Positions 3,321 to 19,092 of a DNA stretch of 41,865 bases are shown here, one piece after another. A program made the translations under genes and the position numbers. Position 1 is the stretch's first letter. Each line of letters begins with the position of its first letter. The DNA lies in NCBI GenBank assembly GCA_002050455.1, contig MWZA01000064.1:1-41865 (forward strand), written 5' to 3'. This stretch comes from Acidobacteria bacterium 5-1 (GTDB lineage: Bacteria > Acidobacteriota > Blastocatellia > Pyrinomonadales > Pyrinomonadaceae). Below the pieces are notes generated by a model. That model saw nothing but the letters and a program-made list of their open reading frames with translations, did no database searches and was not told where the DNA came from.

Positions 3321-3328
3321 ATAAAAAA

Positions 3329-3469: not shown

Positions 3470-3577
3470 CCAACCATTGAAGCCGCGCCGGTTACGGCGG
3501 GCGAAGACAATTACAAAATCATCACTGGCGACGATTTTCGGCTTACCGTTCGCGCCGCCGACACGCAAAAGGTTGAG

Positions 3578-4741
3578 TTGTTTTATCAACCCGTTATCGC
3601 CGTTGACCGCGCTTTGAAATTAAAAACGCTGAACGCGCCCGCCGAAGCGTCAAAGGACAGTTTTGTCGCTGACTTGAAAATCCCCGAAGATTTTAACGGC
3701 GAAGTTTGGGCGCGAGTGAAATATCCGAACGGCGATGTGAAGGAAACTGAGCGTTTGCTGCTGGCAAAGCGCGGCGAACCCGAAAACGAAACGAGTCAAA
3801 CGCCAACGAACTTAAATTCCAACACAAACGCAACAAATTCAATCACAGCCGCGCCGAATCAAACCGCCGACACAGAAGAATCGGCGCGGTCAGATAAATT
3901 AACCGGCGGGCAAATCGAACGCGCCGCGCTGAAGGCGGGCGACGGCGATATCCGCATCACGGTTAATGTTCCGGCTTTTACGTTGACGCTCTGGCAAAAC
4001 GGTAAGGAAATCAAATCTTACTACGTCGGTGTCGGGCGCAAAAAATTTCCGATTCCCATCGGAATGCGCTCGGCTGACAAAATCATTTTGAACCCGGACT
4101 GGATTCCGCCCGACAGCGAATGGGTGCGGCAGTCTTCGGATGTCGAGCCTTACGAGCGAATTCCGGCTGACGACCCGGACAATCCGCTCGGCAGAATCAA
4201 AATTCCGCTTGGGCAGGCATATTTGCTGCACGAAGCGCAATCGCCTTCGGACATCGGCAATCTCGTTTCGCACGGCTGTGTCCGTGTTCTGCGCGACGAC
4301 ATTTTCGAGCTAACCAAGATGATTGTCAGCGCACGTAATCTACCGATTTCAAAACAAGAGATCGAAGCGGCGCGGAAAAATTCCGAACGTCAAGTTATCA
4401 GGCTTAACGGCGACATTCCGGTTGATATCAATTATGACTCGATGGTTGTCGAAAAAGGCATTTTGTCAATTTATCCTGATGTTTATGAGCGCAATACAAA
4501 TACGATTGAAAATTTACGCGCGAAACTCGAAAGTTACGGCGTTGATGCCGCAAAACTCGATGATGAAACGCTTAAGGAAATGTTTGAGCGCGTCAACCAA
4601 GACCAGAAATTCGTCGTCGCGCTCGCTGATGTAAAAGCCGGAAACGCGCTTGCCAAAGGCAAAACCGAACCGCTTACTCCGCAGCCAGCGAAAGGAAACA
4701 GCAAGGAAAAAGATTCGACGCGCCGAAAGTCGAGCGAATAA
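3578..4741 (+). CDS. L,D-transpeptidase (YkuD family), separated from its signal peptide by an amber codon
   Basis: YkuD-family L,D-transpeptidases make 3-3 peptidoglycan cross-links or attach proteins to peptidoglycan outside the cytoplasm. Here residues about 125-255 form the YkuD domain, with H218 in LLHEAQ and the catalytic motif SHGCVR containing C234. The N-terminal part looks like a small beta domain followed by an Asn/Thr-rich linker. The listed start is a TTG and is only the first possible start after the stop at 3467. The real gene almost certainly begins at ATG 3329 and would be 470 residues. Without the signal segment the enzyme would stay in the cytoplasm. It follows the kinase gene by 8 bp. 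The options are a true null allele, amber read-through, or a base error. Confidence 0.88.
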   Translation: MFYQPVIAVDRALKLKTLNAPAEASKDSFVADLKIPEDFNGEVWARVKYPNGDVKETERLLLAKRGEPENETSQTPTNLNSNTNATNSITAAPNQTADTEESARSDKLTGGQIERAALKAGDGDIRITVNVPAFTLTLWQNGKEIKSYYVGVGRKKFPIPIGMRSADKIILNPDWIPPDSEWVRQSSDVEPYERIPADDPDNPLGRIKIPLGQAYLLHEAQSPSDIGNLVSHGCVRVLRDDIFELTKMIVSARNLPISKQEIEAARKNSERQVIRLNGDIPVDINYDSMVVEKGILSIYPDVYERNTNTIENLRAKLESYGVDAAKLDDETLKEMFERVNQDQKFVVALADVKAGNALAKGKTEPLTPQPAKGNSKEKDSTRRKSSE

Positions 4742-5068
4742 GCGAAATTACTAAATTCCTTTGAGTGTTTTCATGAACGTTTGCCGGAACTTTGACAGAT
4801 AAGATAAAGAAAGCAACGGCAAAATTGAACGAGCGTAACAAACTACGGAAACGGAAAATTTGTTTTGGAAACGCGGTAATGAGCGAGGCAAAAAATTTGT
4901 TAAAATTTCAATACTGGTAGGTGAGAGAAGTTTTGACCTGCTACCAAAATTTAATGACCAAAAAATCAGAAAAGAGAAAATAAACAAGATTGTTTTCAAC
5001 AGTTTAGATGAACAGGTGAAATCATCCTCAGCCAAAGAGTTTTCGGTATTTCGATTTATGCACAGTCT
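4742..5068. other. Gene-free interval, 327 bp
   Basis: This lies between two convergent genes. Both strands hold open frames of 70-94 codons, but their predicted products are low-complexity, rich in Lys, Ser and Phe, lack recognisable motifs and mirror each other, so I do not call a gene. A weak 6-bp inverted repeat (TGGTAG near 4915 and CTACCA near 4941) is the only structure seen. Confidence 0.5.
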
Positions 5069-6232
5069 TTAATTATCTTTGTAGACTTTTAGTACGAACT
5101 TATCTTGTAAAAATTCCGACGGTTGAATTTGGCTCTGCAAAATCACGCCTTTGTAATTTCCCGTGAGCAGCATCATTGCCGATGCAATTAAAGAAACGGC
5201 GGTAGTTGTTTGAATCGCCCGCAGTTTGTGTCCGTTTATTTCTAAAGGCTCGACGAAAAACGCTTTTTCCAACAATCGGCGCACGCCCTTCGAGTCGAAA
5301 CCTTCAACCGAAGCGTGAACGAGAACAAAATCGTTTTCGACGGCAGGAATTTTTTCCAAAAATGCGGCTAAAAGTTTGTTCGATAAATCCGGGTCGGGTC
5401 TTAATTTTCTATCTACAATGTTTTTCGCAAATTCTTCCATTACACTTTCAACCCAAGTGTAATGCCCGGCGTGGCGCAGAGTTTTATAATCCAGATTTCG
5501 TGATTTGCCGCGAAAAAATTCTGGCAAATCCGCCGCGCCGCCGCTTGTTAAATCTGCTTCGTAAGTTCTGCCGCCGATTATAATTGTTTCGCGTTCTGAT
5601 AATGCGGGAACTTGCCGAATTTCGTAATCACGAATCACGCGGGAATTTTTGACATATTCGGTTGCCACGCCAATCGGCGACCAAGTGAAACCGTAAAAAT
5701 GCGGCTGATGTGCGTGGGCGGTCAGTGCGCCGACTTTCATTCCGATTTTTTCAACTTTTTCCACGCTGAACTGCCGCTCGAAATTTTGATAAAGCGACAT
5801 CGCCAGAACATTGACAAAACCGGGCGCAAGTCCAGTCTGCAAAACAAAACCCGTTTCGGCATTTTTGGCAAGTTCGATAATTTCGTCGGTTTCCGCGACG
5901 TATTCGGTCAAATTTGCGTAGTGCATTTTGAAATCTCTGGCGAAACGCGCCATGCGCGGAGCTTGGCTTCCCGGCGAACAATCGAGCAAAACATCACATT
6001 CATCAAATGCACTTCCCATCGCATTGTTGAAATAATCTTTTGACATCAACACAGTTTCAACTTTTGAGGTTTTTTGCGAGTTTTGTAAAACGAACTCTTT
6101 TGCATTTTGTATGTTTGCTTGGCTTATATCGCCGAGGAAAATATCTGTTTCAAAATCCGACCATTCACGAATTAAAAGTGCCGCCGCTTCACCGATTCCA
6201 CCTGAACCGGCTATAAAAATTTTTCGATTCAT
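5069..6232 (-). CDS. Saccharopine dehydrogenase-like NAD(P)-dependent oxidoreductase
   Basis: A cytoplasmic protein of 387 residues when started at ATG 6232 (an in-frame GTG lies two codons upstream). The N-terminus KIFIAGSGGIGEAAALLI is a Rossmann dinucleotide-binding loop (GxGGxG), followed by an acidic residue at the end of the second strand (GDIS). DVLLDCSPGSQAPRMARFA and the central ETGFVLQTGLAPGFVNV segment match the saccharopine dehydrogenase / lysine 6-dehydrogenase superfamily. A C-terminal alpha/beta domain follows, as is usual. The exact substrate cannot be assigned, and lysine-pathway neighbours are absent. It is a single transcription unit on the reverse strand, and the IS element begins about 240 bp upstream of it. 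Confidence 0.82.
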   Translation of the reverse strand: MNRKIFIAGSGGIGEAAALLIREWSDFETDIFLGDISQANIQNAKEFVLQNSQKTSKVETVLMSKDYFNNAMGSAFDECDVLLDCSPGSQAPRMARFARDFKMHYANLTEYVAETDEIIELAKNAETGFVLQTGLAPGFVNVLAMSLYQNFERQFSVEKVEKIGMKVGALTAHAHQPHFYGFTWSPIGVATEYVKNSRVIRDYEIRQVPALSERETIIIGGRTYEADLTSGGAADLPEFFRGKSRNLDYKTLRHAGHYTWVESVMEEFAKNIVDRKLRPDPDLSNKLLAAFLEKIPAVENDFVLVHASVEGFDSKGVRRLLEKAFFVEPLEINGHKLRAIQTTTAVSLIASAMMLLTGNYKGVILQSQIQPSEFLQDKFVLKVYKDN

Positions 6233-6431
6233 AAACACAAAATTTCAACATAAAGTTATCAAGAATACAAAATCGGAAATAAACTATTTTTTCGGTAGAA
6301 TAATAGAAGAATTGTTTGATTAACATTTTGAATAAGTATTTAAGCCAAACAAAAAATGACGGAAGGCGGAAATGACGGGACGAGCTTTTACAGGCGGCTT
6401 TTGGAAAAGGAATTCGCCTATGAAAGGTTTT

Positions 6432-6456
6432 TCTGAACAGTTTATTTCTGTTCAGA
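6432..6456. repeat. Perfect 9-bp hairpin beside the IS element
   Basis: TCTGAACAG (6432-6440) and CTGTTCAGA (6448-6456) are perfect reverse complements around a 7-nt T-rich loop. The hairpin ends 13 bp before the left end of the IS element. No clean T run follows. It could be a terminator remnant, a protein-binding palindrome, or the feature that attracted the insertion. Confidence 0.6.
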
Positions 6457-6469
6457 CGTAAGTTTATTT

Positions 6470-6496
6470 GGTCGTGTAACAGAAGAGATGTTTGAA
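6470..6496 (+). repeat. IS left terminal inverted repeat
   Basis: The 27-bp outer end matches the complement of 7203-7229 except at positions 5, 13, 22 and 24. The transposase start lies 26 bp inside it. Confidence 0.85.
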
Positions 6497-6522
6497 AAGT
6501 CGGACAAGTTAAGATTTCAAAT

Positions 6523-7227
6523 GTGCATTATGAAACAATAACTTGTCCTGTTTGTTCAAGCCTGAACATCAAGAAGAATGGCATAAACAAACAGGGAAAA
6601 CAACGCTATCGCTGTAAAGAGTGCGGTCGGCAGTTTATTCTGAGATATAGTTATCGGGCATATTTGAACTCGATTCGAGAACTGATTGTGCCGATGTGTT
6701 TGAACGGTTCAGGCATTCGAGATACGGCACGAGTTCTGCGAATTTCGGCAACCACCGTCATGAAAGTAATTAGCCAAGCGGCACGCCAACTTGCGCCGGA
6801 GACACTTCCCGAACGGATTGCCGATGTCGAACTTGATGAAATGTGGTCATTTGTCCAAAAGAAAAAGAATCAATGTTGGTTATGGCTGGCATATTCACCG
6901 AAAGAGCGACAAATGCTGGCTTTTTCGCTTGGAAAAAGAACCGACCAAAGCCTGCGAAACTTGCTTAGTAAAGTGTCTGGCGTGCAAGTTACGCGCTTTT
7001 ACACTGATAATTGGGAGTCATATCAAAACTTGATTCCCGAAATTCGTCATTGGATTGGAAAAACTGGAACACAGAGAATCGAAAGACAGAATTTGAACTT
7101 TCGGACGCACTTAAAAAGATTGCAGCGAAGAACGATTTGTTTTTCAAAGAGCAAGAAAATGCTGGAAGCCGTCGTGAAACTTTATGTTCATCAGATAAAT
7201 TCTTCCAGCATCTCTTTTGTTACATGA
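6523..7227 (+). CDS. IS1-family transposase, single-frame type
   Basis: A 234-residue transposase that catalyses movement of the surrounding element. The N-terminus has a zinc-ribbon/InsA-like region with CPVCSS and CKECGRQF, then a helix-turn-helix around residues 60-85 (GIRDTARVLRISATTVMKVI). The InsB-like catalytic part carries the acidic residues of a DDE nuclease in DVELDEMWSFV, FYTDNWESY and a final RIERQNLNFRTHLKRLQR segment, typical of IS1. Classical IS1 makes this protein by frameshifting between insA and insB. Here both parts lie in one continuous frame, as in several non-enterobacterial IS1 relatives. The start is GTG 6523. The stop codon overlaps an ATG (ATGA, 7224-7227) that opens the mod remnant. 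It appears intact. Confidence 0.92.
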   Translation: MHYETITCPVCSSLNIKKNGINKQGKQRYRCKECGRQFILRYSYRAYLNSIRELIVPMCLNGSGIRDTARVLRISATTVMKVISQAARQLAPETLPERIADVELDEMWSFVQKKKNQCWLWLAYSPKERQMLAFSLGKRTDQSLRNLLSKVSGVQVTRFYTDNWESYQNLIPEIRHWIGKTGTQRIERQNLNFRTHLKRLQRRTICFSKSKKMLEAVVKLYVHQINSSSISFVT

Positions 7228-7229
7228 CC
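7203..7229 (-). repeat. IS right terminal inverted repeat
   Basis: Reads GGTCATGTAACAAAAGAGAT outward-to-inward on the reverse strand and pairs with the left end. It overlaps the transposase stop codon, and the ATG that restarts the mod frame is inside it. Confidence 0.85.
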
Positions 7230-8558
7230 ATAATTTTTTATTACAGTAAAACCTCAGATTATATTTGGAATCAGCAATACAAACCATATAGCGATGATTA
7301 CATAAAGCAGAATTATCGTATGAAAGATGAAGACGGACGAGCTTTTCAAACGGTTGATTTAACAGCGAGAAAACCGGGCGGAGATACTTCCTATGAATGG
7401 AAAGGTTATACGTTAAAAAGCGGCAGATATTGGGCGTATTCCAAAGCGAATATGGAGAAGTTCGATCAAGAAGGGAAAATTTATTACACAAGCAGCGGTT
7501 TGCCCAGATTGAAATACTATCTTGATGAAATGCCCGGAGTTTCACTTCAAGATATGTGGACGGACGTAAAACTTTTAAGTTCACATTCAGGAGAACGAGT
7601 TGATTATCCAACTCAGAAACCCGAAGTGTTACTTGAAAGAATTATCAAAGCATCATCAAATCCGAATGACATCGTTTTCGACTGTTTTATGGGAAGCGGC
7701 ACGACGCAAGCCGTCGCAATGAAACTCGGACGGCGGTTTATCGGCGCGGACATCAATCTCGGCGCGATTCAGATTTCAACCAAACGGCTGATTTCCGTCG
7801 CCGAAGAACTAAAGCCGGAAAAACAACGCCAACTTATCGCGGAAGAAGACGAAACGACTGCAAAATACACCGGCTTTGAAGTTTATAACGTCAATCATTA
7901 CGACGTTTTCCGCAATCCCGTGCAGGCGAAGGAACTGCTCATCGAAGCTCTCGAAATTCAGCCGCTTCTGGCATCTTTAGTCTGGGACGGCGAAAAAGAC
8001 GGGCGATTGGTCAAGATTATGCCTGTCAACCGCATCGCCACACGCGCCGATCTTAACGAACTTATCGCCAATTTCGATTACAAATCTTTTCAAGCCAAGT
8101 TTAACGAAAGTCCGCACAAAGCGGTCGAAAAAATTCTCCTCGTTTGTATGGGACACGAACCCGACCTGGCGGCGCATCTGCAAAAAGAAGCCGCGCCGTA
8201 TAAACTCGACATCGAAGTCGTTGATATTTTGAGAGATCGTTCAAAATTAGAATTCAAACGCGATTCGGAAGCGAAAATTACGGCGACGGAAACCGAACTC
8301 GAAATCGAAAAATTCTACCCGATGAACCTTCTGCAAAAACTCTCGCTTTTTCAGGAAAATGTCGAAGATTGGCGCGAATTGGTCGAATCGGTAATGATTG
8401 ATTTCAACTACGACGGCGCGATTTTCCAACCGACATTTTTGGACATTCCCGACAAAAACGAATTAGTGAAAGGCGTTTACGAAATCCCTTCGGATGCCGG
8501 AAATATCCGCGTCAAAATCACCGATCTTTTAAGCGAATCTTTGGAGATTGATTGTTGA
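7224..8558 (+). pseudogene. mod: Type III modification methyltransferase, N-terminally truncated by the IS
   Basis: This is the C-terminal 444 codons of a beta-class, adenine-specific type III Mod subunit. It keeps the segment before the target-recognition part (IIFYYSKTSDYIW), then YPTQKPEVLLERII (motif X region) and the S-adenosylmethionine-binding motif FDCFMGSGTTQ (residues 153-162), and a long C-terminal extension. In beta-class enzymes the catalytic DPPY motif lies N-terminal to these, and it is absent: homology stops exactly at the IS end (7229/7230). No upstream fragment is visible left of the IS. The ATG at 7224 overlaps the transposase stop, so the stump could be translated by coupling, but it should not methylate DNA. 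Full-length Mod proteins are usually about 600-700 residues. Confidence 0.88.
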
Positions 8559-8576
8559 ATTTTCCCGTGCTATCAT
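8548..8576 (+). promoter_or_regulatory. Candidate promoter of the toxin-antitoxin pair
   Basis: TTGATT (8548-8553), a 17-bp spacer and TATCAT (8571-8576) preceded by TG at the extended -10 position form a plausible sigma-70 promoter across the end of the mod remnant. It would start transcription just before the AGGAG ribosome-binding site (about 8590) of the antitoxin gene, letting the pair be expressed independently of mod. Confidence 0.45.
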
Positions 8577-8606
8577 TTTGCAAGCAAAAAGGAGTTTTAT
8601 AAAAAT

Positions 8607-8840
8607 ATGCCGAATGTTTTAGTCAGAGATGTCGAACCGGAAGTTCTCGAAAAAATCAAAAAACGCGCCGCCAAAAACGGGCGTTCCCTGCAAACCGAAG
8701 TGCAGATTATTTTAAAAGATGCCGCCGCCAAACCTGAGCCTTTATCCGATCTCGAAACAGCGCGGAAAATCAGAAGTATGTTGAATGTGAAAAATCAAAG
8801 CGACAGTGCCGAACTTCTCCGTGAGGACAGGCAGCGATGA
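8607..8840 (+). CDS. FitA/VapB-like ribbon-helix-helix antitoxin
   Basis: A 77-residue antitoxin that should bind and neutralise the PIN-domain toxin encoded next and repress its own promoter. The N-terminal strand MPNVLVRDVEPEVLEKIKKR followed by AAKNGRSLQTEVQIIL is the ribbon-helix-helix pattern of FitA-type antitoxins. The Lys/Arg-rich tail ending LLREDRQR would be the toxin-binding region. An AGGAG sequence lies about 12 bp upstream. Its stop overlaps the toxin start (ATGA), the usual coupling in such pairs. The pair is unusual in lying between the two subunit genes of a type III restriction-modification system. Confidence 0.9.
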   Translation: MPNVLVRDVEPEVLEKIKKRAAKNGRSLQTEVQIILKDAAAKPEPLSDLETARKIRSMLNVKNQSDSAELLREDRQR

Positions 8841-9253
8841 TAATAGTTTCGGACGCTAGCGTCGCGGTGAAATGGTATGCCGCCGAAATTTATACTGCCG
8901 AAGCCGAAAAAATTTTAGACGGCACTTATGAGATTCACGCGCCGGAACTGATTATGCCGGAATTCGGAAGTATCATCTGGAAAAAATTTCGCCGAAACGA
9001 TTTAACCGAAAAGGAAGTGGACACGATAATTACCGCTTTTAGTCGACAAAACATCATTTTCCATTCTCATAAACTTTTATTGAAATCGGCTTTTACGCTG
9101 GCGCGGCAAACAGGGCAAACCGTTTATGATTGTTCATATCTGGTCTTGGCGGTTTCCTTAGCCTGTGAATTCGTAACCGCCGACGAGCGGTTTTATAAGG
9201 CATTGGAGAAAACAAAACTCAAAAAACATCTGCTTTGGATCGGCGACATTTAA
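8837..9253 (+). CDS. VapC-like PIN-domain toxin
   Basis: A 138-residue PIN-domain ribonuclease. PIN toxins coordinate metal with a cluster of acidic residues. Here D6 in VSDASVAVKWY, E42 in LIMPEFGSIIWK, D98 in TVYDCSYLVLA and D116 in TADERFY occupy the expected places, so it looks catalytically intact. Likely targets are tRNA or rRNA, as for other VapC proteins, but this cannot be read here. It overlaps the antitoxin by 4 bp and is followed 12 bp later by the restriction subunit. The arrangement could stabilise the restriction locus by post-segregational killing (inference). Confidence 0.92.
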   Translation: MIIVSDASVAVKWYAAEIYTAEAEKILDGTYEIHAPELIMPEFGSIIWKKFRRNDLTEKEVDTIITAFSRQNIIFHSHKLLLKSAFTLARQTGQTVYDCSYLVLAVSLACEFVTADERFYKALEKTKLKKHLLWIGDI

Positions 9254-9265
9254 GGGCGAAAACAA

Positions 9266-11914
9266 ATGGCGAAAAAAACAAATCAAGTCAGTTTGGATTT
9301 TGCGTTTTATCAAAGTCTGAAACAATTTTACGACGAAAATCGGCGTTTTATTCGTTCGCACTATAAAGATTTGTCAAAAAAGTTTCTCGATTTTAACGAT
9401 CCGAAGGAAAACGACGCTTATTTGAGAGAACCGCAGTTTGAAGCGTTGGAAATTTATATTTTTCTCAAGGAATTCTGCAATAACACTTCCGTTCATCGCC
9501 TGTTCCGCGATTGGTTCGAGAAAAAAGACATTTTTGAGCGGCGTTCCGCGATTTCGCATCGCGCTCTGCAAGGCTCGCTTTTCGATACCGTTACAGAACT
9601 GCAATACGAAAATCTTTACAAGCGAATGCAGAAAAATTCGCGCAAATACTCGAATTACATCTACGCGCTGACAATGGGAACGGGCAAAACGATTCTGATG
9701 GCAACGTGCATTTTTTACGAATTTCTGCTCGCCAACAAATTCCCGTTCGACGAAAAATTTTGCCACAACGCGCTCGTCTTCGCGCCCGACAAAACCGTGC
9801 TTCATTCGTTGCGGGAAATTGTCGAATTCGACAAATCGCTCGTTGTGCCGAAGGAATATGTCAATTGGCTCGACACGCATCTGAAATTTCACTTTTTGGA
9901 CGATGCCGGAACGACGTTAAATCTTTTGGATAAATCGAAATTCAACATCGTTATCTCGAACACGCAGAAAATAATCCTAAAAAAACAGCACAAAGAAAAA
10001 GCCGCCGCCGACAACTTTTTCGGCTCGGAAAAAGACACGCACGAAAGGGAAAACGCCGAGCCGACCATTTATGACGACATCGCCGCGCTGTTGGCGGAAG
10101 AACCGGAAGACGAAAAAGACCTTGCCACGAACCAGCGTTTTGAAAAACTAAAACGCCTCAGCCAACTCGGAATTTACGTTGACGAAGCGCACCACGCCTT
10201 CGGCGACGCGCTGGCAAAAGATATGGGCATCAAAACCGCCAAAACGAGTTTGCGCCTGACGATTGACGAACTCGCCGCAAGTTTAGAGCGGAGCGGCACG
10301 CGCATTGTTGCCTGTTACAACTACACGGGAACGCCATATGTCGGCGATCAGGTTTTACCGGAAGTCGTCTATGCCTACGGATTGCAGGAAGCTATCGAAA
10401 AAGGAATGCTCAAAAAGGTGAAACGGCACGGCTACACGAATCCGAAATCCGAAGAGTTCGTCCAACTTGCGATTGATAATTTTATTGAGAGCGTAACCGA
10501 AAACGGAGAATTTATTCGCCCCGAAGGGATTTTGCCGAAAATGGCTTTTTTCGCGCCGACGGTTGAAGATTTAAACAGCGAACTGCGTCCGGCAGTCGAA
10601 AAAGCCATCGCTAAACACGGATTTTCTTCCGACAAAATTCTAATCAACGTCGGCGATCCGAAGCTAACGACAAATGACGAAATCCGCGAATTTAACAATC
10701 TCGACAAACCTTCATCAGACAAGCAGTTTATTTTGCTGGTCAACAAAGGACGCGAAGGCTGGAACTGCCGTTCACTGTTCGGTGTTGCGCTGTTCCGCAA
10801 ACCGAAATCGAAAGTCTTCGTTTTGCAAGCGACGATGCGCTGTCTTCGCTCCATTGGCGACCGCCAGCACACCGGACAAATTTATCTGAGCGACGAAAAT
10901 TTGCAGATTCTCGAAGACGAACTCCAGCAGAATTTCCGCATCAGCGGCGAAGAACTAGAAAATGCCGGAAAGGACAAGGAAACAGTAGAAGTCCGCGTCG
11001 TGCCGCCGCCGGTGAAAATTAAAATAAAAAGAATTTCCACGCGCTACGAGATGCGCGATAAAAAAATAAAAGACGGATTTTCCCTCGACCTTGAACATTA
11101 CGATACGAGCCGCTACAAACTTCTACACATCGAACAGCAAGGCTTACAAGAGCATACTTCCGCCGCGTTCAAAAAGATCGAAGACTTAACCGATTTGCGC
11201 CAAAAAAGAGTTTTTGGTGAATTAACTTTAGTTGCCGAAATCGCCCGTTATCTGAATTTGCGCCCGCTCGAAGTTGAAGAAATTCTCGCCAAAACAAAAG
11301 AAGGAATCGAAGGCATTTTAGAACATATAAATGAGTTCAACGAGGTGCTTTACGATGCCGTCATCCCGAAAATCTTCGACGCGCTTTACGATTTGCGCGA
11401 ATTCAAATCGGAAGACGAACACGAAATCGAACTCGTCAAACAGCCACCGTTCGGCAAGGATTTTTACTCAATCCGTGCCGCGCAAGATAAGATAATTCGC
11501 AATATTGACCAAAAAGTAGGCGTTCTCGCACCGAAAAGTTTTCACCTCGATGCTTATTGCTTCGACTCAAATCCCGAAAATGCTCTATTTCTCGATTTGC
11601 TGTCGGACGAAAAAGTGAAAAAAGTTTATTTCACTGGAATGCTGACGCACGGGCAGACAGACTTTTTTATTCAATACATTGATCCCGAATCACACACCGT
11701 CAAACGATATTACCCGGATTTTCTCGTCCAGCTCGAAGATGATTCGTGGCTCATCGTTGAAGTCAAAGGCGATAATCTCATCGAAGCATCCGTCGTGCAG
11801 GCAAAAGCACAATACGCCCGCCAACTCGCCTCAGCCAGCAATATGACTTACAAAATCATCAAGGGAACTGATGCCGAGAGCGGTAATTATAATCAGCTTT
11901 TTAGCATAGATTAA
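9266..11914 (+). CDS. res: Type III restriction enzyme Res subunit (SF2 helicase-nuclease)
   Basis: An 882-residue DNA translocase and nuclease that, together with Mod, cuts unmodified DNA. The Walker A motif TMGTGKT lies at 136-142 and the Walker B/DEAH box VDEAHH at 305-310. Later helicase motifs are seen in NYTGTPYVG, NKGREGWNCRSL and MRCLRSIGDRQHTGQIY. The C-terminus has a PD-(D/E)XK nuclease core: YYPDFLV (D818) and LIVEVKGDN (E832, K834). Length is normal for Res, and no stop or shift is seen. Because the cognate Mod has lost its catalytic half, and Res relies on Mod for site recognition, the protein is probably idle unless Mod activity is provided elsewhere in the genome. Confidence 0.92.
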   Translation: MAKKTNQVSLDFAFYQSLKQFYDENRRFIRSHYKDLSKKFLDFNDPKENDAYLREPQFEALEIYIFLKEFCNNTSVHRLFRDWFEKKDIFERRSAISHRALQGSLFDTVTELQYENLYKRMQKNSRKYSNYIYALTMGTGKTILMATCIFYEFLLANKFPFDEKFCHNALVFAPDKTVLHSLREIVEFDKSLVVPKEYVNWLDTHLKFHFLDDAGTTLNLLDKSKFNIVISNTQKIILKKQHKEKAAADNFFGSEKDTHERENAEPTIYDDIAALLAEEPEDEKDLATNQRFEKLKRLSQLGIYVDEAHHAFGDALAKDMGIKTAKTSLRLTIDELAASLERSGTRIVACYNYTGTPYVGDQVLPEVVYAYGLQEAIEKGMLKKVKRHGYTNPKSEEFVQLAIDNFIESVTENGEFIRPEGILPKMAFFAPTVEDLNSELRPAVEKAIAKHGFSSDKILINVGDPKLTTNDEIREFNNLDKPSSDKQFILLVNKGREGWNCRSLFGVALFRKPKSKVFVLQATMRCLRSIGDRQHTGQIYLSDENLQILEDELQQNFRISGEELENAGKDKETVEVRVVPPPVKIKIKRISTRYEMRDKKIKDGFSLDLEHYDTSRYKLLHIEQQGLQEHTSAAFKKIEDLTDLRQKRVFGELTLVAEIARYLNLRPLEVEEILAKTKEGIEGILEHINEFNEVLYDAVIPKIFDALYDLREFKSEDEHEIELVKQPPFGKDFYSIRAAQDKIIRNIDQKVGVLAPKSFHLDAYCFDSNPENALFLDLLSDEKVKKVYFTGMLTHGQTDFFIQYIDPESHTVKRYYPDFLVQLEDDSWLIVEVKGDNLIEASVVQAKAQYARQLASASNMTYKIIKGTDAESGNYNQLFSID

Positions 11915-11922: not shown

Positions 11923-11965
11923 TTCTTACGCATACAATTCTAAATTAAAGAGAGAAGCGTAAGAA
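11923..11965. terminator. Possible bidirectional terminator between convergent genes
   Basis: TTCTTACGC (11923-11931) and GCGTAAGAA (11957-11965) form a perfect 9-bp inverted repeat with a 25-nt AT-rich loop. It spans the 25-bp gap between Res and the convergent peptidase gene and enters the last codons of the latter. No strong U tract is present, so terminator function is tentative. Confidence 0.4.
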
Positions 11966-12692
11966 CTCCGTTATAGTTCGGCATAGAAATAGATTCTTCC
12001 CAAATCTGTAAATCCGATTGAAGATTGTCATCAGAAACCCACGTTTCAGCATAGACAGCCTTTTCACCTTCTTGATTCGAGTTGTCCTTAAATAGTTGAT
12101 AGGCTACGGAATCGTTATCTAAATCTTTTTTTGGAATAAAAAAATTGAAATTCTCATTTTTCTTAACCCATTCAATTCTGCCATCAATGCTCCAAATAAC
12201 CGCACAAGATTCGTCCGTAACTTCCGAACATTTTAATAATGTTGCAGTCAGTGAAGTATTAAAGTTTTTTGCTATTGCTTTTGCAGTTTCAATACTAACT
12301 TTGTTATTAATTATTTGATAAATTTCATTTTTTGGAAGTAAAAGCTCTGAAGCAAATCTGTTAGCCTCAATTTCCTGCAAATTTATTCTATTGCTCCAAG
12401 ACTCAATTTCTTTAGACTTACATTTTACCGAACCGTGACTTGGCAAAACGAAATGCGCAATTTCGTGGCAAATTGTAAAATTTCTTCGACCTATTTCTCT
12501 AATATTTTTATTTATTGAAATGATGCCCTTTGCTCTATCAACCCGAAATACTAATGCCCCTTCCAAATTTTCAAAATCAACTTCCTCAATCCTAAGCCGC
12601 AAACGCGCAGCAACTGCTTCAGGATTGTCAGCGCGTTTTATTTTAAGTTCTGCTAGTAGAGAACGGGCAAAATCTTCCGGTTCATAGTTCAA
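11940..12692 (-). CDS. ImmA/IrrE-family zinc metallopeptidase
   Basis: A 250-residue protein. The zinc-binding motif HEIAH is at 76-80 (TICHEIAHFVLP), and the third ligand region is EIEANRFASELLLP near 107-120, the classic ImmA/IrrE (COG2856) pattern. Family members cleave repressors or other regulators to switch on mobile-element or stress genes. The start is a TTG at 12692, supported by an AAGGAG sequence 9 bp upstream that overlaps the stop of the preceding gene. The C-terminal ~100 residues have no motif I recognise. It is last in a three-gene leftward unit with a sigma factor, so its substrate may be a regulator of this island or the 141-residue neighbour (inference). The DNA here is visibly more AT-rich than Mod/Res. 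Confidence 0.85.
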   Translation of the reverse strand: MNYEPEDFARSLLAELKIKRADNPEAVAARLRLRIEEVDFENLEGALVFRVDRAKGIISINKNIREIGRRNFTICHEIAHFVLPSHGSVKCKSKEIESWSNRINLQEIEANRFASELLLPKNEIYQIINNKVSIETAKAIAKNFNTSLTATLLKCSEVTDESCAVIWSIDGRIEWVKKNENFNFFIPKKDLDNDSVAYQLFKDNSNQEGEKAVYAETWVSDDNLQSDLQIWEESISMPNYNGVLTLLSLI

Positions 12693-12698: not shown

Positions 12699-13124
12699 TT
12701 ACTCCTTAATCTTGTCTTTCATATCTTCAATAATATGTTCATCCTTTTCTGATGCTTGTTCAGAATCTTTTGGACGATGTGCATAAGCTATTTGGCTGTT
12801 ATTGCCTACTGCTCCGGCAATTATTCCGGGAATCCAATTGTCCGGCTCGGTTTCAACGAGCGACTGTTTTTGATAATTTGTGATACTCCTTATTGCTCTG
12901 TTCAAATTATCTATATTGTTATCACCGTTTGCATATCGCTCCCTTACTTCCTCTTGCATTTTGGATTTCAGTTTTTCTACTAAACTTTCAGCCGAAAGCC
13001 CGTAAGATTCGATTATTTCTTCTGCAAGCTCCTCATCAAAATCATCTTCACTTCCAAATATTGCGTCCTCGATTTTTTCCCGTTCTGTTTTTCCATCTAA
13101 GAACGAGTCTTTTTTTTCTTTCAT
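12699..13124 (-). CDS. Acidic protein of unknown function between sigma factor and peptidase
   Basis: This 141-residue protein is not recognised. It is strongly charged: a Lys/Glu-rich start, an acidic stretch (GSEDDFDEELAEEIIES), a predicted helical middle, a Gly/Ala/Asn segment near residue 105 and a charged C-terminal helix. No signal peptide, membrane helix or cysteine is seen. A purine-rich AAGGAAGGA ribosome-binding site precedes the ATG. It lies 28 bp after the sigma factor gene and 6 bp before the ImmA-like peptidase gene, so the three are almost certainly co-transcribed. By position it could be an anti-sigma or adaptor protein and a candidate substrate for the peptidase. This is a guess from context only. 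Confidence 0.7.
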   Translation of the reverse strand: MKEKKDSFLDGKTEREKIEDAIFGSEDDFDEELAEEIIESYGLSAESLVEKLKSKMQEEVRERYANGDNNIDNLNRAIRSITNYQKQSLVETEPDNWIPGIIAGAVGNNSQIAYAHRPKDSEQASEKDEHIIEDMKDKIKE

Positions 13125-13152: not shown

Positions 13153-13716
13153 TCAATTCGTTTTTTTATGATTGCGATTGTAATTCAATCTTTTTTTTCG
13201 CCTGTGAAATTCGTCAACTGAGATGCCAAGCAAAACTGCAATGTTTCTTGGCTCTAACTCTTCACAATGAACAACTGCATCAACAATATCTTTCAATTCC
13301 GTTTCACCATTTGTAAATTGATAGTAATGTTCCGCAGTTTCAAGTTTTTCAGCATCCTTTAATGTCTTTGTATCAATCAGAATATTTTCTACTTCCGCTT
13401 TTTTGCTGTCATCCATATCCTCTATAGGATTTGTTGTTTTGTGAGATGATTTGCGAAACAAATCAATGACCTTATTTTTCATTATTGTTTTGGTCAGGTA
13501 AAAACATTCGTCTTGAGATTTCGGACTGTAATTTTTTCCTAATTTGTCAAAAAGCTCTATTACGGCTGCAACAGCAACATTATCAATTGTTTCGCCCGTT
13601 CCGGTTATTACCAAATCTTTACTGACTTTAAAGTGTCCTATACCCCAATCAGTTAACCTTAACATCAGATTTTTCCAATCAATCGTATCAACTGAAATGT
13701 GTTGCGAAGATTTCAT
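13153..13716 (-). CDS. ECF-like RNA polymerase sigma factor
   Basis: A 187-residue protein with the two-domain layout of extracytoplasmic-function sigma factors. Region 2 is suggested by DNVAVAAVIELFDKLG followed by CFYLTKTIMKNKVIDLFRKSS (about residues 47-92). Region 4 is the helix-turn-helix ELEPRNIAVLLGISVDEFHRRKKRL near the C-terminus. A charged linker separates them. Similarity is clear in pattern but divergent, so this may be a specialised phage-like or island sigma factor. It opens the leftward unit with the 141-residue protein and the ImmA-type peptidase and is transcribed divergently from the ubiquitin-like operon. It may control that operon (inference). No anti-sigma factor with a membrane helix is adjacent. 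Confidence 0.75.
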   Translation of the reverse strand: MKSSQHISVDTIDWKNLMLRLTDWGIGHFKVSKDLVITGTGETIDNVAVAAVIELFDKLGKNYSPKSQDECFYLTKTIMKNKVIDLFRKSSHKTTNPIEDMDDSKKAEVENILIDTKTLKDAEKLETAEHYYQFTNGETELKDIVDAVVHCEELEPRNIAVLLGISVDEFHRRKKRLNYNRNHKKTN

Positions 13717-13875
13717 ATTTGATTCGGCTTCATATTTAAAAAGCGTATGAGAAATGTTTTTTTGGAGAAATTTTATTTTTTCGTCAAAAGTGACTTTCTG
13801 AATCGCTTAGATAATAGGGGACAGTGAAAATACTTTCCTCAAATTTAAATAATTATACACAGGACGGTTAAAATT
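13717..13875. promoter_or_regulatory. Divergent control region of the sigma/ImmA and Ubl operons
   Basis: This 159-bp AT-rich interval separates two divergent start codons and must hold promoters for both. On the plus strand an AGGA ribosome-binding site precedes the Ubl start, and TTATACA near 13852-13858 is a possible -10 element without a good -35. I cannot identify a convincing sigma-70 pair, which would fit use of the neighbouring alternative sigma factor. Confidence 0.4.
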
Positions 13876-14418
13876 ATGAAAGTAACAGAAAAAACAGAAA
13901 AAACAGAAAATAACGAAATTCAGTTGTTCGTCCAAGGCGAAGGCATTACCGAAATACAGCTTGTGCGTATTCCCGAAAAATCTACTTTGGGTGAACTTGT
14001 CAGGAAATTAAATTTAGTTTTTATGGAAGCCAATGCAACGGCAGGCGATGATTTTATATTTCTGCTCGAAGATTCCGAACGCGAATTGAAATCCGATAAA
14101 ACTATCAAAGAACTCGGTATTAAAAACCGGGAACGCATTCATATTCACAGTTGCCGCAAAATAAAAGTCGGCGTGAATTTTAACGGAAAAGAAGCCGGTC
14201 ATTCATTTCCGCCGTCGAAGACAATTGCCAAAGTTAAACGCTGGGCGGATAAGCAATTTGGAATTGAAGGAGTTGACGCGACCGAACACGCTCTCCAAAT
14301 CTGCGGAACAGCTAAACGACCGGACGAAGATGTTCATATCGGGTCGCTCGTCCAAAGCCCGAATTGTCAAGTTAGTTTTGACTTAGTGCCGAAGAAACGG
14401 GTCGAGGGGGCAATTTAA
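13876..14418 (+). CDS. Tandem ubiquitin-like (beta-grasp) protein
   Basis: A 180-residue protein made of two beta-grasp units, about residues 14-92 and 93-175. Each begins with paired strands (EIQLFVQGEGITEIQLV; KIKVGVNFNG) followed by a helix (TLGELVRKLN; TIAKVKRWADKQFG), as in prokaryotic Ubl modifiers. It should be activated by the E1 and passed to the E2 encoded downstream. The C-terminus is KKRVEGAI: a single Gly (178) followed by two residues rather than an exposed Gly-Gly, so either the JAB peptidase trims the tail or attachment differs from ubiquitin. The start follows AGGACGG. The stop overlaps the E2 start (TAATG). It lacks an export signal, so it acts in the cytoplasm. Confidence 0.85.
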   Translation: MKVTEKTEKTENNEIQLFVQGEGITEIQLVRIPEKSTLGELVRKLNLVFMEANATAGDDFIFLLEDSERELKSDKTIKELGIKNRERIHIHSCRKIKVGVNFNGKEAGHSFPPSKTIAKVKRWADKQFGIEGVDATEHALQICGTAKRPDEDVHIGSLVQSPNCQVSFDLVPKKRVEGAI

Positions 14419-14903
14419 TGGCTACGCTCACACCTGACGAACGAGTCTTCCGCGAACATCTCGAAGCCGGTCCTTTTCAGAGTGGGGTTGACCGAGGACG
14501 TTGGAACTTGGTTTCAGTCAACTGGTCACATTCTGTTATCGCGGTCAGCGCAGCGTCGCGCCCAAATGCGCCTGATGAGTTTGATTTTCGATTTGAACTT
14601 ACCAATTATCCAGCTGTGCCGCCAACGGCACAGCCTTGGAATTCGGAAAAGAATGCTCCTTTGAAATCTGATAAATGGGCATCGGGCAATGGGCGTGTAT
14701 CGCATGCTTTCAATTCAGGCTATAAAGGCGGAACTTGCTTGTATTTACCTTGTGACCGCGAAGCATTTGATCAAGGACACCAAAATTGGATTCATCAACA
14801 CCCGGAAATGATTTGGTCGCCTGATGGCGACATCACGCAATATTTGAGGATTATTTATGATCTCCTTAATTCAAAAGACTATACGGGGCTTCATAGCTCC
14901 TAA
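14418..14903 (+). CDS. E2-like ubiquitin-conjugating enzyme
   Basis: A 161-residue UBC-fold protein. FDFRFELTNYPAVPP (55-69) matches the strand and YPxxPP turn of E2 enzymes, GGTCLYLP (104-111) places C107 at the catalytic cysteine position (GxxCL), and a Trp-rich segment with WSPDGDITQYLRIIYDLL corresponds to the WSP...I..LL helix after the active site. It therefore looks active rather than an inert variant. The Asn/His normally just before the Cys is less clear. It should accept the Ubl from the E1 as a thioester and transfer it to a target. It sits between Ubl and JAB genes, overlapping both, so the four are translationally coupled. Confidence 0.85.
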   Translation: MATLTPDERVFREHLEAGPFQSGVDRGRWNLVSVNWSHSVIAVSAASRPNAPDEFDFRFELTNYPAVPPTAQPWNSEKNAPLKSDKWASGNGRVSHAFNSGYKGGTCLYLPCDREAFDQGHQNWIHQHPEMIWSPDGDITQYLRIIYDLLNSKDYTGLHSS

Positions 14904-15378
14904 TCACAAACTCAGTTGTTCTGTGAAGCTCTGGAACGAAGGGCTTACAGAATTACGCCGGCGCACGGAAGGCTATCACGAAAGCGGCGCATTTCTGCTC
15001 GGAGCAGAAGACGGTGAGCGGCGCAGAGTCACGCAATTTGCTTACTACGACGACCTCGATCCGAATTCTCTTGAAACAGGCATCGTCGTTTTCGACGGCT
15101 GCGGCTACGGACCGCTCTGGCAACTTTGCCGCGAAACCGGGTTAACGGTCGTCGCCGACGTTCACGTTCATCCGGGCGCGGCACGTCAAAGCCATTCCGA
15201 CTGCACGAACCCGATGATTGCCACAAAGGGACACATCGCTTTGATTGTTCCCGATTTCGCGGAACGAGTTTTTCAACCGTCGAGCTTGGGCGTTTACCAA
15301 TACAAAGGCTCACATAATTGGGATAATTTTACCGGCGCAAAGGCAAAAGATTTTTTCTACGTCGGGTTTTGGGGATGA
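14857..15378 (+). CDS. JAB/JAMM-domain isopeptidase
   Basis: A 173-residue JAB1/MPN-type zinc peptidase. The metal-site residues are in place: E42 in ESGAFLLG, H103 and H105 in DVHVHPG, then S112 and D115 in QSHSD, giving E...HxH...SxxD. In related conjugation operons such enzymes mature the Ubl precursor and remove it from targets. The fact that the Ubl ends with extra residues after its last Gly makes the first role attractive here. The ATG start lies 47 bp inside the E2 gene in another frame; no better start exists before the conserved core. It overlaps the E1 start by 4 bp. It is cytoplasmic. Confidence 0.88.
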   Translation: MISLIQKTIRGFIAPNHKLSCSVKLWNEGLTELRRRTEGYHESGAFLLGAEDGERRRVTQFAYYDDLDPNSLETGIVVFDGCGYGPLWQLCRETGLTVVADVHVHPGAARQSHSDCTNPMIATKGHIALIVPDFAERVFQPSSLGVYQYKGSHNWDNFTGAKAKDFFYVGFWG

Positions 15379-16762
15379 AAATTATGAAAAGTGTCGAATC
15401 AATCGGCGACGAATTAAACCGCACATTAAAAATGGTGCTGGACAGCGGCGAAGCCTCTAGTATTGAGGAAGCACAGCAAATCTTTGAAGGTTATCGGCTG
15501 CAAATTCACATCGGAGGCGATGTCGCTTTCTCACCGACGCTGCAAGCCGCTCTGCTGACCGCCGTCAACACCGGACGACGATGTTTCTTAGGCGGCGTAA
15601 AAGTTATTGGAAAAACGGACGTTGATTTGCAGATTCCGTGGCGACATTGCCAAACTCTGCGCGAAGCGATTCTTAATTTGCAAGCTGAAACAAGCGAAGA
15701 CTTGGATGAAAAATCACCACAAATTTTTATCGGTGACACCGATTCAAAAATTCCAGTGAACGAGTTTGCTGTGCGAGCAACCTTCGACGGCTGGCGCGGC
15801 GGCGTTGTGCCGATGGAAGATAACATTAGATTAAACGAACGTCAGCAGTTTACGCCCGCCGGAGTTTTAGTCGGTTCGCTCGCTGTTTCCGAAGCGTTTC
15901 AATTCGTGCGCGGTCGTAACGCTTTAGCCGGTCACAGAGCGGTTGGTTTATCTTTATGGCGACCAGACTCAGAAGCGTCGTGGCTCGATGAAAAAGAAAA
16001 CGGACCCGCGCTCGAAATACTGCCGTCGCGCCTGTGGCTAATCGGACTGGGACATTTAGGGCAAGCTTGTCTCTGGACGCTTGGTTTTTTGCCGTATGCC
16101 AATCCAAGTGAAGTGTTGCTAGTTCTTCACGATTTCGACACGCTGGTTGCGGCGAACGACAGTACTTCGCCGCTCACAAATAAAAAAATTGTCAGTCGAA
16201 AAAAGACGCGGGCGATGGCTGATTGGTGTGAAGAACGAGGCTTTCGCACTTCAATTGTCGAACGCCCTTTCGCCCCGAATTTAAGATTGAGGGCGACGAC
16301 CCGCGCATCGCTTTGTGCGGCGTTGACAATGAAAACGCACGGGCAATACTTGAGGATGTCGGCTTTGCCAAGATAATCGAAGCTGGGTTAGGAAAAGGAA
16401 CAGAAGAATACTTAGCCTTTCAATTACACACTTTTCCGGCAAGTAAAACGGCGCGACAAATATGGGGTAACGACACGATAACCTCTCCCCAATCGCCCGC
16501 GTTGGAAAAACCTGCTTATCAAGCTCTGGTTGCCGAAGGCTTGGACAAATGCGGTTTGACGCTGCTCGCCAACCGCTCGGTGGGAGCTTCTTTCGTCGGC
16601 ACTTTCACTTCTTCGCTGATTGTCGCCGAGCTTTTAAGAATTACGATGGGCGAATGCAGTTACGAAGTAATAGACGGCACACTACGTTCGCTTGAAAATA
16701 GAAATGTGTTCGTCGCTCAGAAACAGTCGTCTTTTAATGCCGGTTTTACGACAGCCGGATAG
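15375..16762 (+). pseudogene. E1-like (ThiF-fold) activating enzyme with a one-base frameshift
   Basis: This enzyme would adenylate the Ubl C-terminus and load it on the E2. A unique ~215-residue N-terminal region precedes a ThiF Rossmann domain: nucleotide loop GLGHLG (about 224-229), then VLHDFDTLVAANDS with the acidic residues of E1 strands. After ERPFAPN the frame is lost near 16280-16282, where TTT appears to replace TTTT. The downstream frame resumes with FKIEGDDPRIALCGVDNENA and continues to LDKCGLTLLANRSVGASFVG, whose Cys is the best candidate for the thioester. Restored, the protein is 462 residues. As read, translation gives a truncated 333-residue product. ATG 15375 overlaps the JAB stop. 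It could be a base error, a null mutation or, less likely, programmed -1 frameshifting. Confidence 0.88.
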
Positions 16763-16791
16763 AGATATAAAAAATAAAAAGAATTGAGTTT

Positions 16792-16980
16792 ATGACTAAA
16801 AATTGCAAAAATTGTAATCGGACTTTCGATAACGAAAATGTTTTAATTGATTTTGTCGGCATCGGCTACGGCGAAAAAATAGAGCGTGAATTTTTCGAGC
16901 GTCACAAAACATCGAACTTGTGCGACGACTGTTTGCTGGATGAAATAATTGCAAAGTCGCAGAGTACTAAAACATCATGA
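16792..16980 (+). CDS. CxxC/CxxC zinc-ribbon-like mini-protein
   Basis: A 62-residue protein with two Cys pairs, CKNC near residue 4 and CDDC near residue 44, a spacing suited to a treble-clef or ribbon zinc site. Between them is a hydrophobic-acidic segment (VLIDFVGIGYGEKIEREFFERH). It has no signal or membrane helix. It follows the E1 gene by 29 bp on the same strand, so it is probably part of the conjugation operon. Small binuclear zinc proteins accompany several prokaryotic ubiquitin-like operons, where they are suggested to be E3-like adaptors. That role here is inference. Confidence 0.65.
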   Translation: MTKNCKNCNRTFDNENVLIDFVGIGYGEKIEREFFERHKTSNLCDDCLLDEIIAKSQSTKTS

Positions 16981-16983
16981 AAT

Positions 16984-17013
16984 ATGGGCAATAACGGAAA
17001 TCAAAATTGGTAG
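16984..17013 (+). other. Amber-interrupted start of the nuclease-like gene
   Basis: ATG 16984 opens a frame that reads nine codons to TAG at 17011-17013, and then continues in the same frame with no stop to 17493. After the TAG it encodes HLAWAVGGLVAGSWLARNE, a likely membrane anchor. Changing TAG to CAG would join everything into one protein of about 169 residues. Confidence 0.55.
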
Positions 17014-17100
17014 CATCTGGCTTGGGCGGTCGGCGGTTTAGTCGCCGGCTCCTGGCTGGCGCGAAATGAAATTGAAGAATCGAAAAAAAACCGCGCTGAA

Positions 17101-17493
17101 TTGGATTACCCGGAAGACGCGAAAGAAGCCTATGACGAAATCGGAGACCTGCTCGATAACTGGGAGACTGACGAGGATTGCGAGACAGAAGACGATTACA
17201 CACAGAACTTGGCGGATTATTTGGCTGCAAACACAGATTGGGAAATTGAAATTTATCCCAATACGCCCGAAGGGAAACCAGATATTTTGATTGGTGATCT
17301 GATAGCTCTCGAACTCAAAATTAATCCTTCAAAAAATGAAAGCAATAGGTATATCGGTCAATGCGCCGGATGCTCACGCTTATGGATTACTTGGATGGTA
17401 ATTATAGATGCTCCTCAGAGCAAAACCGGAAGATTAGAAGAATTACTTGTTGACAAAGGACTTGAACAAGTCCTAGTTTGGAATTTCTCTTGA
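17101..17493 (+). CDS. PD-(D/E)XK nuclease-like protein, N-terminus cut off by an amber codon
   Basis: The readable part is 130 residues from TTG 17101, the first usable start after the in-frame TAG at 17011. The upstream frame adds a short hydrophobic segment and a charged linker, so the intact product was probably a membrane-tethered 169-residue protein. The core has an acidic helix-rich start, then KPDILIGDLIALELKIN, which fits PD-(x)n-ExK of the restriction-like nuclease fold (PD, then E and K ten or so residues later), followed by RYIGQCAGCSRLW and a strand WMVIIDAP. Function is inferred only from this motif and from its place directly after the Ubl operon and the zinc mini-protein: a candidate nuclease effector. 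It may now be inactive. Confidence 0.6.
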   Translation: MDYPEDAKEAYDEIGDLLDNWETDEDCETEDDYTQNLADYLAANTDWEIEIYPNTPEGKPDILIGDLIALELKINPSKNESNRYIGQCAGCSRLWITWMVIIDAPQSKTGRLEELLVDKGLEQVLVWNFS

Positions 17494-18159: not shown

Positions 18160-19092
18160 TTAACTTATTCTCAACCCCAAATGATCGCACGGCGCGTCGG
18201 TCAAATCCTGCTCGACTCCCAAATATTTCTCCGTCGTTTGAATAGAGTCGTGTCCTAAGGATAGTTGAATCTGGTCAATCGGCGAGCCGCCTTTGTGGGC
18301 GAGTTTGGCAAAAGTTCGGCGCAGATCGTGCGGCGCGATTCCTTGATTTTGTAATTTTTCAGCGTAACCGGCAACAATATCTCTAATCGCCTGCGGTGTA
18401 ATTGAGTCACCCATCAAATTATCGCCTTTATTAACACGACGGAAGACAAAACCTTCTTCCAAATGCGCGACCGTTTTCCAGGCATCCACGCAAGCCTTTG
18501 CCCACGAAGGCATCGGCACGGTTCGCATTTTATCGCGCTTTCCCACAATATCAACAATCGCCCAGCGACCTTCGCGCTGCTCGATATGTGAAAAAGACAA
18601 AATCGAGGCTTCGGCGCGGCGCAGTCCGCAGCCGATTAAAATTGCCAAAACAGCGCGATCACGCAAACCTTTCAAAGTTTTTATGTCGGGAGCATTCAAC
18701 CAAATCTGCGCTTCTTCACGGGTGAGCCAATTGCCGGTGCGTCGCCCGCGAAACGGAACGCCACGAACGGCGCGGATTCCATTGGCAATTCGTGAATCAA
18801 TCAAATTATTATCTTCAGCTTCAGTGGCAAGTTTTCTAATCGCCGAAAGTTTTTGATTGATAGTTGAAGATGAAAGTTTCTGTGCTCTGAGGGTTTTGAC
18901 ATAACGGTTTATTAGCGATTTATTTAGTTCGGGACGATTTTCCGAGACGTGCCAAAAGAAAAATTCCTGGAGATGCCGATTATAAGCGCGACGCGAATTT
19001 TCACTCGGCAGCCCGTCAATGACCATCGCAATAATTTTCTTTTCGGCAGCGGTTAATTTTGGTTTGATTAAAGCTGTGGCGGAATTTTCCAT
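18160..19092 (-). CDS. Tyrosine recombinase/integrase
   Basis: A 310-residue site-specific recombinase. The N-terminal SAM-like DNA-binding domain covers about residues 18-110 (LPSENSRRAYNRHLQEFFFW, SSTINQKLSAIRKLA). The catalytic domain carries R158 (GCGLRRAE), a Lys in the GKRDKMRTVPM hairpin, H255 and R258 (APHDLRRTF), H281 (LSLGHDSIQ) and nucleophile Y290 (TTEKYLG), so it is complete. It resembles XerD-like and integron- or island-type enzymes. It stands at the right edge of the defence genes, pointing toward them, next to the degraded helicase, and is the most likely agent that mobilised the island. No attachment repeat or tRNA gene was recognised nearby. Confidence 0.93.
   Translation of the reverse strand: MENSATALIKPKLTAAEKKIIAMVIDGLPSENSRRAYNRHLQEFFFWHVSENRPELNKSLINRYVKTLRAQKLSSSTINQKLSAIRKLATEAEDNNLIDSRIANGIRAVRGVPFRGRRTGNWLTREEAQIWLNAPDIKTLKGLRDRAVLAILIGCGLRRAEASILSFSHIEQREGRWAIVDIVGKRDKMRTVPMPSWAKACVDAWKTVAHLEEGFVFRRVNKGDNLMGDSITPQAIRDIVAGYAEKLQNQGIAPHDLRRTFAKLAHKGGSPIDQIQLSLGHDSIQTTEKYLGVEQDLTDAPCDHLGLRIS

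Follow-up and report, generated by a model that had tools for sequence, protein, structure and literature searches.

CapP is a peptidase that is activated by single-stranded DNA (ssDNA) and cleaves CapH, a helix-turn-helix (HTH) repressor found at immune operons (PMC13373217). In the parts of that paper available to us, CapW or CapH+CapP was found in 219 of 544 Bub operons, CapK+CapS is reported at five Bil operons, the controllers named (CapW, CapH+CapP and CapK+CapS) are repressor-based, and no sigma factor is named as a partner of CapP. It is not yet clear what keeps immune operons silent until they are required. Here, we describe a locus on contig MWZA01000064.1 of Acidobacteria bacterium 5-1 (41,865 nucleotides (nt), all of which were analysed and are hereafter called the window). 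A Bil (BilABCD) operon lies there divergent from genes for a diverged sigma-like protein, a small acidic protein (u) and a CapP-type peptidase, referred to together as the trio. On balance, we favour the reading that the Bil operon is under a sigma-factor version of CapP control, in which CapP would cut u and the freed sigma factor would fire the promoters on both sides. The observed part of this reading consists of the linkage, the recurrence of the trio, the presence of CapH+CapP at the same kinds of operon, and paired promoter-like sites in related trios. The features of the locus are as follows.

11940-12692, minus strand: P0001, CapP-type ImmA/IrrE (M78) metallopeptidase, TTG start, HEIAH at residues 76-80 (PADLOC capP, 7.6e-60)
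12699-13124, minus strand: P0002 (u), acidic protein of 141 amino acids (aa), net charge -15, no family above cut-off
13153-13716, minus strand: P0003, diverged sigma-70-like protein, 187 aa (NF006550, 9.9e-6; TIGR02937, 1.9e-4; both under the curated cut-off)
13717-13875: divergent intergenic from the sigma gene to BilA, 159 bp
13798-13809, plus strand: CTGAATCGCTTA element, candidate -10 region of a defence-side promoter, 66 nt before BilA, common to three intergenics
13876-14418, plus strand: BilA, tandem ubiquitin-like protein (PADLOC BilA, E 5.7e-53; Pfam ubiquitin, 5.6e-4, under cut-off)
14418-14903, plus strand: BilB, E2-like (PADLOC BilB, E 1e-58; Pfam DUF7665, 6.9e-52)
14857-15378, plus strand: BilC, JAB/JAMM peptidase (PADLOC BilC, E 1.9e-68)
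15375-16376, plus strand: BilD E1, N-terminal piece, out of frame near its own end (PADLOC BilD positions 3-298, E 5e-112)
16235-16762, plus strand: BilD E1, C-terminal piece in a different frame (PADLOC BilD positions 290-451, E 1.2e-51)

An earlier sequence-only reading of the window had described the leftward genes as a divergent unit of sigma factor, acidic protein and ImmA-type protease. The three genes were confirmed, but the unit reaches 11940, beyond the interval 13153-17493 to which it had been assigned. P0001 could be placed in CapP, as the PADLOC capP model was covered from 5 to 241 of 242 and HExxH is kept as HEIAH; matches were also found to Pfam M78 (1.2e-13) and to CapP in PDB 7t5t (3.1e-16, over residues 36-180). 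The unit is not a CapH+CapP pair, as the neighbours of P0001 are u and the sigma-like protein, and no HTH-repressor family was matched by P0002 or P0003. Homologues of u lie between sigma and CapP; in L032 u is fused to the peptidase, and in L058 a second short u-like gene (9503-9781) adjoins the trio on the other strand. Its position, its acidity, the L032 fusion and analogy make u a candidate anti-sigma factor and CapP substrate. The predicted structure of u alone had a predicted local distance difference test score (pLDDT) of 54. Searches of plasmids with the window sigma and u (tblastn) returned no match, while P0001 had no match in viral contigs and matched three phage records.

The rightward genes had been read as an overlapping Bil/Bub-type set for a ubiquitin-like protein, an E2, a JAB peptidase and an E1. 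BilA, BilB, BilC and BilD were found in this order with head-to-tail overlaps, and all four match PADLOC Bil models; the operon is Bil and not Bub, and its E1 is frameshifted rather than intact. BilA ends in VEG-AI, whereas several homologues stop right at the Gly of RVEG; BilC would thus probably trim BilA back to a terminal Gly. Cys112 of BilB (LYLPC) is shared with the homologues from L074 and L125, and E42, H103, H105, S112 and D115 of BilC (JAMM) are invariant across a six-member homologue alignment. The N-terminal piece of BilD aligned with residues 1-301 of the L074 protein, and the two halves in separate frames represent a single frameshift.

The trio was found to recur. Separate sigma, u and CapP genes were counted at 26 loci, comprising 13 from genomes of the phylum, L031 and L094, five plasmids and six further plasmids (13 + 2 + 5 + 6). 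A search of 97 genomes (that of the window and its relatives) with the window sigma matched one other genome, in two copies: L031 is a sigma-u-CapP trio, and in L032 the sigma gene is followed by a gene for a single polypeptide in which u, the peptidase and a macro domain are joined (Macro match under cut-off). When 396 genomes of the phylum were searched with an alignment of CapP from two trio members, 20 matches were obtained, spread over 18 genomes. They were sorted into 13 trios in the order sigma-u-CapP, five CapH+CapP, one u-like piece at a contig end and one unsorted; as the query favours trio CapPs and some of these loci had gone into the models, the proportions should not be read as a census. 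Matches to the L036 sigma were found in 13 plasmid records, of which six are from Cereibacter. Six of these plasmid regions were read, of which L069 is unannotated and was left out of the trio count. Eight more plasmid regions (seven of 138 records from the CapP search and one of the 13 from the sigma search) gave six trios and two CapH+CapP, as assigned by hidden Markov models, and the L094 trio surfaced in a scan for Bil operons. HExxH was present in 27 of 27 proteases of the CapP tree, including that of the window; the L073 peptidase, which is far from the others in the tree, was assigned by position and HExxH. On this tree, sigma and CapH partners require at least two changes.

Two of these loci have other neighbours. 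L032 (9949-14609) continues from the sigma gene and the u-ImmA-macro fusion into an AAA/adenylosuccinate-synthetase-like gene and a DUF7002 gene. The L031 trio (3045-7781) adjoins a PD-(D/E)XK gene and, by Pfam, a Mu-type transposase, as well as a gene judged TnsC-like by eye.

Ten of the 26 trio loci adjoin either a Bil set (the window and L094) or a ThiF-type E1 operon (L036, L057, L065, L067, L071, L073, L167 and L172). The E1 is accompanied by a BilC-like gene in L036, a prokaryotic E2 in L065, DUF6791 in L057, and multiubiquitin, E2 and DUF6527 in L071 and L167; ThiF alone was recognised in L067, L073 and L172, and in L073 the E1 gene is downstream in the same direction, not divergent. 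Five further trios adjoin a cyclic oligonucleotide-based antiphage signalling system (CBASS), in L059, L063, L066, L068 and L169. CapH+CapP was found beside Bil in L028, L030 and L121, and beside CBASS in L168 and L171. The trio therefore recurs beside both ubiquitin-like and CBASS operons, and the co-occurrence on which the sequence-only reading had staked its case was borne out.

A second trio is present in the genome of the window (L066, contig C193, 9958-14694), divergent from CBASS genes for a SAVED-HNH effector and a cyclase, with TGTCCGA sites both ways. Just outside it, a fragment at L066 9650-9889 has its last 62 residues identical to those of a tyrosine integrase that lies near the Bil locus (window 18160-19092), although identity at the DNA level, over 191 nt, is 84%.

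Neighbourhoods also bear on a different account, in which the trio works on its own as a toxin-antitoxin or defence unit, happens to be housed in defence islands and exerts no control over the adjacent operon. No defence operon was assigned at 11 of the 26 trio loci, though the neighbours of most were not scanned, and the L032 fusion adjoins a DUF7002 gene, both of which would suit such a unit. Its divergent placement with paired outward sites would not, nor would the occupation of the same place by CapH+CapP at the same kinds of operon, nor the sigma-like genes that head Bil operons co-directionally in 43 of 80 loci (see below). We regard an independent unit as quite improbable.

Promoter-like sites were sought in the intergenics of two groups of loci: group 1 (seven loci, including the window) and group 2 (14 loci tested). 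The core group-2 site is TGTCCGA-N16/17-GCAT. The strict pattern [TC]GTCCG[AG]-N15-18-G[CT]AT was found in both directions in nine of the 14 group-2 loci, compared with eight matches in 488,870 nt elsewhere in them; L069 and L100 are within the 14, are not counted as trios, and were both negative. The pattern was absent from the three CapH+CapP intergenics. In group 1, CTGA[AT]TCGCTTA was found only in the intergenics of the window, L057 and L032, out of some 4.0 Mb of loci on both strands, overlapping loci included. In large Bil operons, described below, TTCCGG-N16-19-CGAT was found close to the sigma gene in 20 of 46 loci, where chance would give 0.010 occurrences per 400 nt.

Candidate sites elsewhere in the genome of the window were set aside. 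No open reading frame (ORF) begins within 200 nt of a second CTGAWTCGCTTA copy on its strand, and this copy is likely due to chance. Twelve matches to the group-2 pattern were considered as a wider regulon: two are the paired sites on C193, and the others are likely chance. Of those ten, eight were examined (L157-L164); seven are inside ORFs, and one of these seven, L160, is also less than 200 nt before the start of another ORF.

An inverted repeat, TCGGAC..GTCCGA, occurs in six of the 14 group-2 intergenics, as might be expected of a repressor site. The sigma-like protein could then be a DNA-binding repressor that CapP cleaves directly, as it does CapH, with u as an adaptor or chaperone. The partners of CapP elsewhere are repressors, and the window sigma falls under the sigma cut-offs, both in keeping with this idea. 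In the nine both-way loci, however, each half of the site is paired with GCAT or GTAT 15-18 nt away on its own side, which is a -35/-10 layout. Moreover, Sigma-70 region 2 was matched, under cut-off, by five trio sigmas (L031, L036, L059, L065 and L094, and not L063 or L066), one trio sigma is annotated sigma-70, and Sigma-70 region 4 was matched at E <= 0.01 by 12 of 15 sigmas tested from large Bil operons. Taken together, these results make a repressor unlikely, though still conceivable for the window, where the sigma is under cut-off. Other repeats were seen by eye: TTCTGAAA in L172, TTTCCGAC in L056, and in L174 a TCGGACA/TGTCCGA repeat with the side element changed. It is as if sigma and promoter had co-diverged in these loci.

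The sigma-release reading that we favour can be set out as a series of steps. At rest, u would hold the sigma factor. CapP would be switched on, most likely by ssDNA from phage replication or DNA damage, a signal proposed for the trio by analogy with CapH+CapP. Activated CapP would then cleave u, and the freed sigma factor would bring RNA polymerase to the promoters at either side of the intergenic, so that its own operon and the defence operon would be raised together. Inducible control by a peptidase and a sigma factor had been suggested from the window sequence; this proposal is strengthened by the recurrence of the trio beside ubiquitin-like and CBASS operons and by the sites that face both ways in group 2.

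Several results weigh against sigma release. The window sigma is under the curated cut-offs, as noted, and its predicted fold was unusable (pLDDT 65, best fold match E 0.17); CnrH, a sigma factor, ranked only seventh among the fold matches (E 6.3) and was likewise unusable. The u proteins of the two groups are weakly alike (prob 58, E 1e-4), and no relationship was detectable between u and the small protein of large Bil operons. The 12-bp element of the window is present in three of the seven group-1 loci, and lies on the defence side in L057 and on the sigma side in L032. The window intergenic contains neither TGTCCGA sites nor TTCCGG-N16-19-CGAT. Five of the 14 group-2 loci lack the strict pattern, as do the L053 and L056 intergenics, and the motifs had been spotted by eye on the same sets in which they were later counted. 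A held-out test on six trios was weak. Three had the group-2 pattern both ways, L169 had it on the defence side only, and L172 and L174 had none; the 81,934 nt that surround the first five of these trios contained no match. The sigmas of the three positives are 79-89% identical to those of L071, L070 and L072 in the discovery set, which leaves L169, L172 and L174 as the independent part of the test, with one one-way match in three. Finally, three Burkholderiaceae Bil loci (L085, L090 and L095) have a sigma and a small gene with no peptidase found, and protease-free control is possible there.

Bil operons at large were also compared, using the best 80 of 205 relatives from a contig scan with six BilC. 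In 43 of the 80, an upstream and co-directional series of a sigma-like gene, a small gene and a gene for an ImmA-UvrD protein (roughly 1,100 aa) heads the operon; the ImmA-UvrD gene is split into two ORFs in a few loci. The sequence-only reading had considered a sigma/ImmA unit unusual beside such an operon, and these counts do not bear that view out. Pfam domains M78, UvrD and PD-(D/E)XK were found in the ImmA-UvrD protein of L100, the locus tested. As 34-38 of these loci had served to train our models of the large operons, matches of the models to them are built in, whereas the Pfam hits are independent. The group-1 sigma profile matched the group-2 profile at 2.2e-10 and the large-operon sigmas at 2.6e-5. 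The remaining 37 loci comprised three with a sigma and small gene only, eight with a partial ImmA-UvrD (seven at contig ends, and L091 with a remnant), one with a divergent trio (L094), 13 with another divergent ImmA-family gene, eight with none of these, and four that end too near.

A BilD tree (FastTree, 71 rows), in which the window was represented by its first BilD piece only, placed the window inside the class of large operons, as a neighbour of L074 and away from L094. This placement suggests two separate arrivals of the trio at Bil operons and, in the window, the swap of one sigma/ImmA device for another. More broadly, there may be a further family of immune-operon controllers that acts by activation. 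In it, sensors of the CapP or ImmA-UvrD-nuclease type would release dedicated sigma factors by proteolysis, and each sigma factor would switch on both its own promoter and that of the defence operon, as the default control of Bil operons across phyla. This wider proposal is offered tentatively, and we place it just short of an even chance.

Two of the Bil loci deserve description. In L100 (2642-5520, Trinickia mobilis), two sigma/small-gene pairs are stacked before the ImmA-UvrD and Bil genes, and the small protein of the first pair is matched by the group-2 u model as well as by the large-operon model (2e-24 and 3e-05). In L091 (7549-8970, Collimonas sp. OK412), a laboratory model locus for Bil, only a 473-aa ImmA-UvrD remnant precedes BilA. 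Sigma control of Bil has perhaps been overlooked because this locus keeps only the UvrD remnant.

The window locus itself may have decayed. As BilD is frameshifted, the defence output may be dead in this genome, and the whole locus could be a remnant without present function, which would be compatible with sigma release in the family; the ORF at 17101 (listed below), with an in-frame stop upstream, points the same way. The remaining Bil and trio genes are nevertheless open, and the catalytic motifs are kept in BilC and CapP. The BilD frameshift may be real or an assembly error, the latter because the genome is a draft in 223 contigs and 79% complete. We consider a remnant possible, if somewhat doubtful.

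Two further ORFs follow the operon.

16792-16980, plus strand: 62-aa protein with two CxxC pairs, no family above cut-off
17101-17493, plus strand: 130-aa ORF, called PD-(D/E)XK-like by eye alone, no family, in-frame stop upstream

The CxxC mini-protein noted previously does exist as an ORF, but it belongs to no family above cut-off and, like the 130-aa ORF, has no homologue in the related loci searched with the two. The PD-(D/E)XK-like label of the 130-aa ORF was not upheld, as no match was found in Pfam, PADLOC or NCBIfam, nor in Pfam for a longer reading of the ORF. Membership of these ORFs in the operon is not supported. On the other side of the trio, Type III-like restriction-modification genes were found (7011-11914; methylase 7011-8558, ResIII 9266-11914), with a FitA/PIN toxin-antitoxin pair between the two and a TnsA-like match near the C-terminus of ResIII.

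Bil and CapP are already known. Sigma-factor CapP control and sigma/ImmA-UvrD heads of Bil operons were not met in our literature searches, which had the primary Bil, Bub-structure and CapH/CapP papers and two Aravind-group surveys outside their scope; a term search of the available parts of Iyer 2006 and Kaur 2020 returned no passage on either. If a CapP module does release a sigma factor, it would form a switch with built-in positive feedback, common to ubiquitin-like systems and CBASS, and the model makes direct predictions as to the promoter sequence, the substrate that is cut and the trigger. The native regulator may also be missing from Bil systems that were tested without the genes upstream of them.

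Release of a sigma factor by a protease has a parallel in Type III-E CRISPR (TPR-CHAT, Csx30 and RpoE), where the protease is thought to free the sigma factor from its partner within an immune system. That protease and partner are unrelated to those of the trio and the trigger is a guide RNA; the Type III-E CRISPR sigma model, NF041236, matched the window sigma at 0.021 only. A looser parallel is found in the EACC2-caspase conflict systems, which include an extracytoplasmic function (ECF) sigma gene and so bring a peptidase together with an ECF sigma factor in a single proposed system (Kaur 2021, PMC8195603). As far as the available text of that paper goes, the peptidase is a caspase and not M78, the sigma factor is coupled to a TPR protein, and no opposite ubiquitin-like or CBASS operon is described. 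CapK+CapS and CapW/BrxR resemble the trio as controllers at immune-operon promoters that are tied to DNA damage, but in the portions of PMC13373217 available they are repressor-based, without a protease or sigma factor. With Bil, the window shares all four proteins in order, as matched by the PADLOC models, and differs in its frameshifted BilD and in its compact divergent trio, in place of the co-directional sigma, small gene and ImmA-UvrD of 43 of the 80 loci. The closest likeness is to CapH+CapP, with a protease of the same family (PADLOC capP 7.6e-60, PDB 7t5t 3.1e-16) in the same divergent place at immune operons. The partner is an HTH repressor in CapH+CapP, whereas in the trio it is a sigma-like protein with u, and the output of the trio would therefore be activation rather than de-repression.

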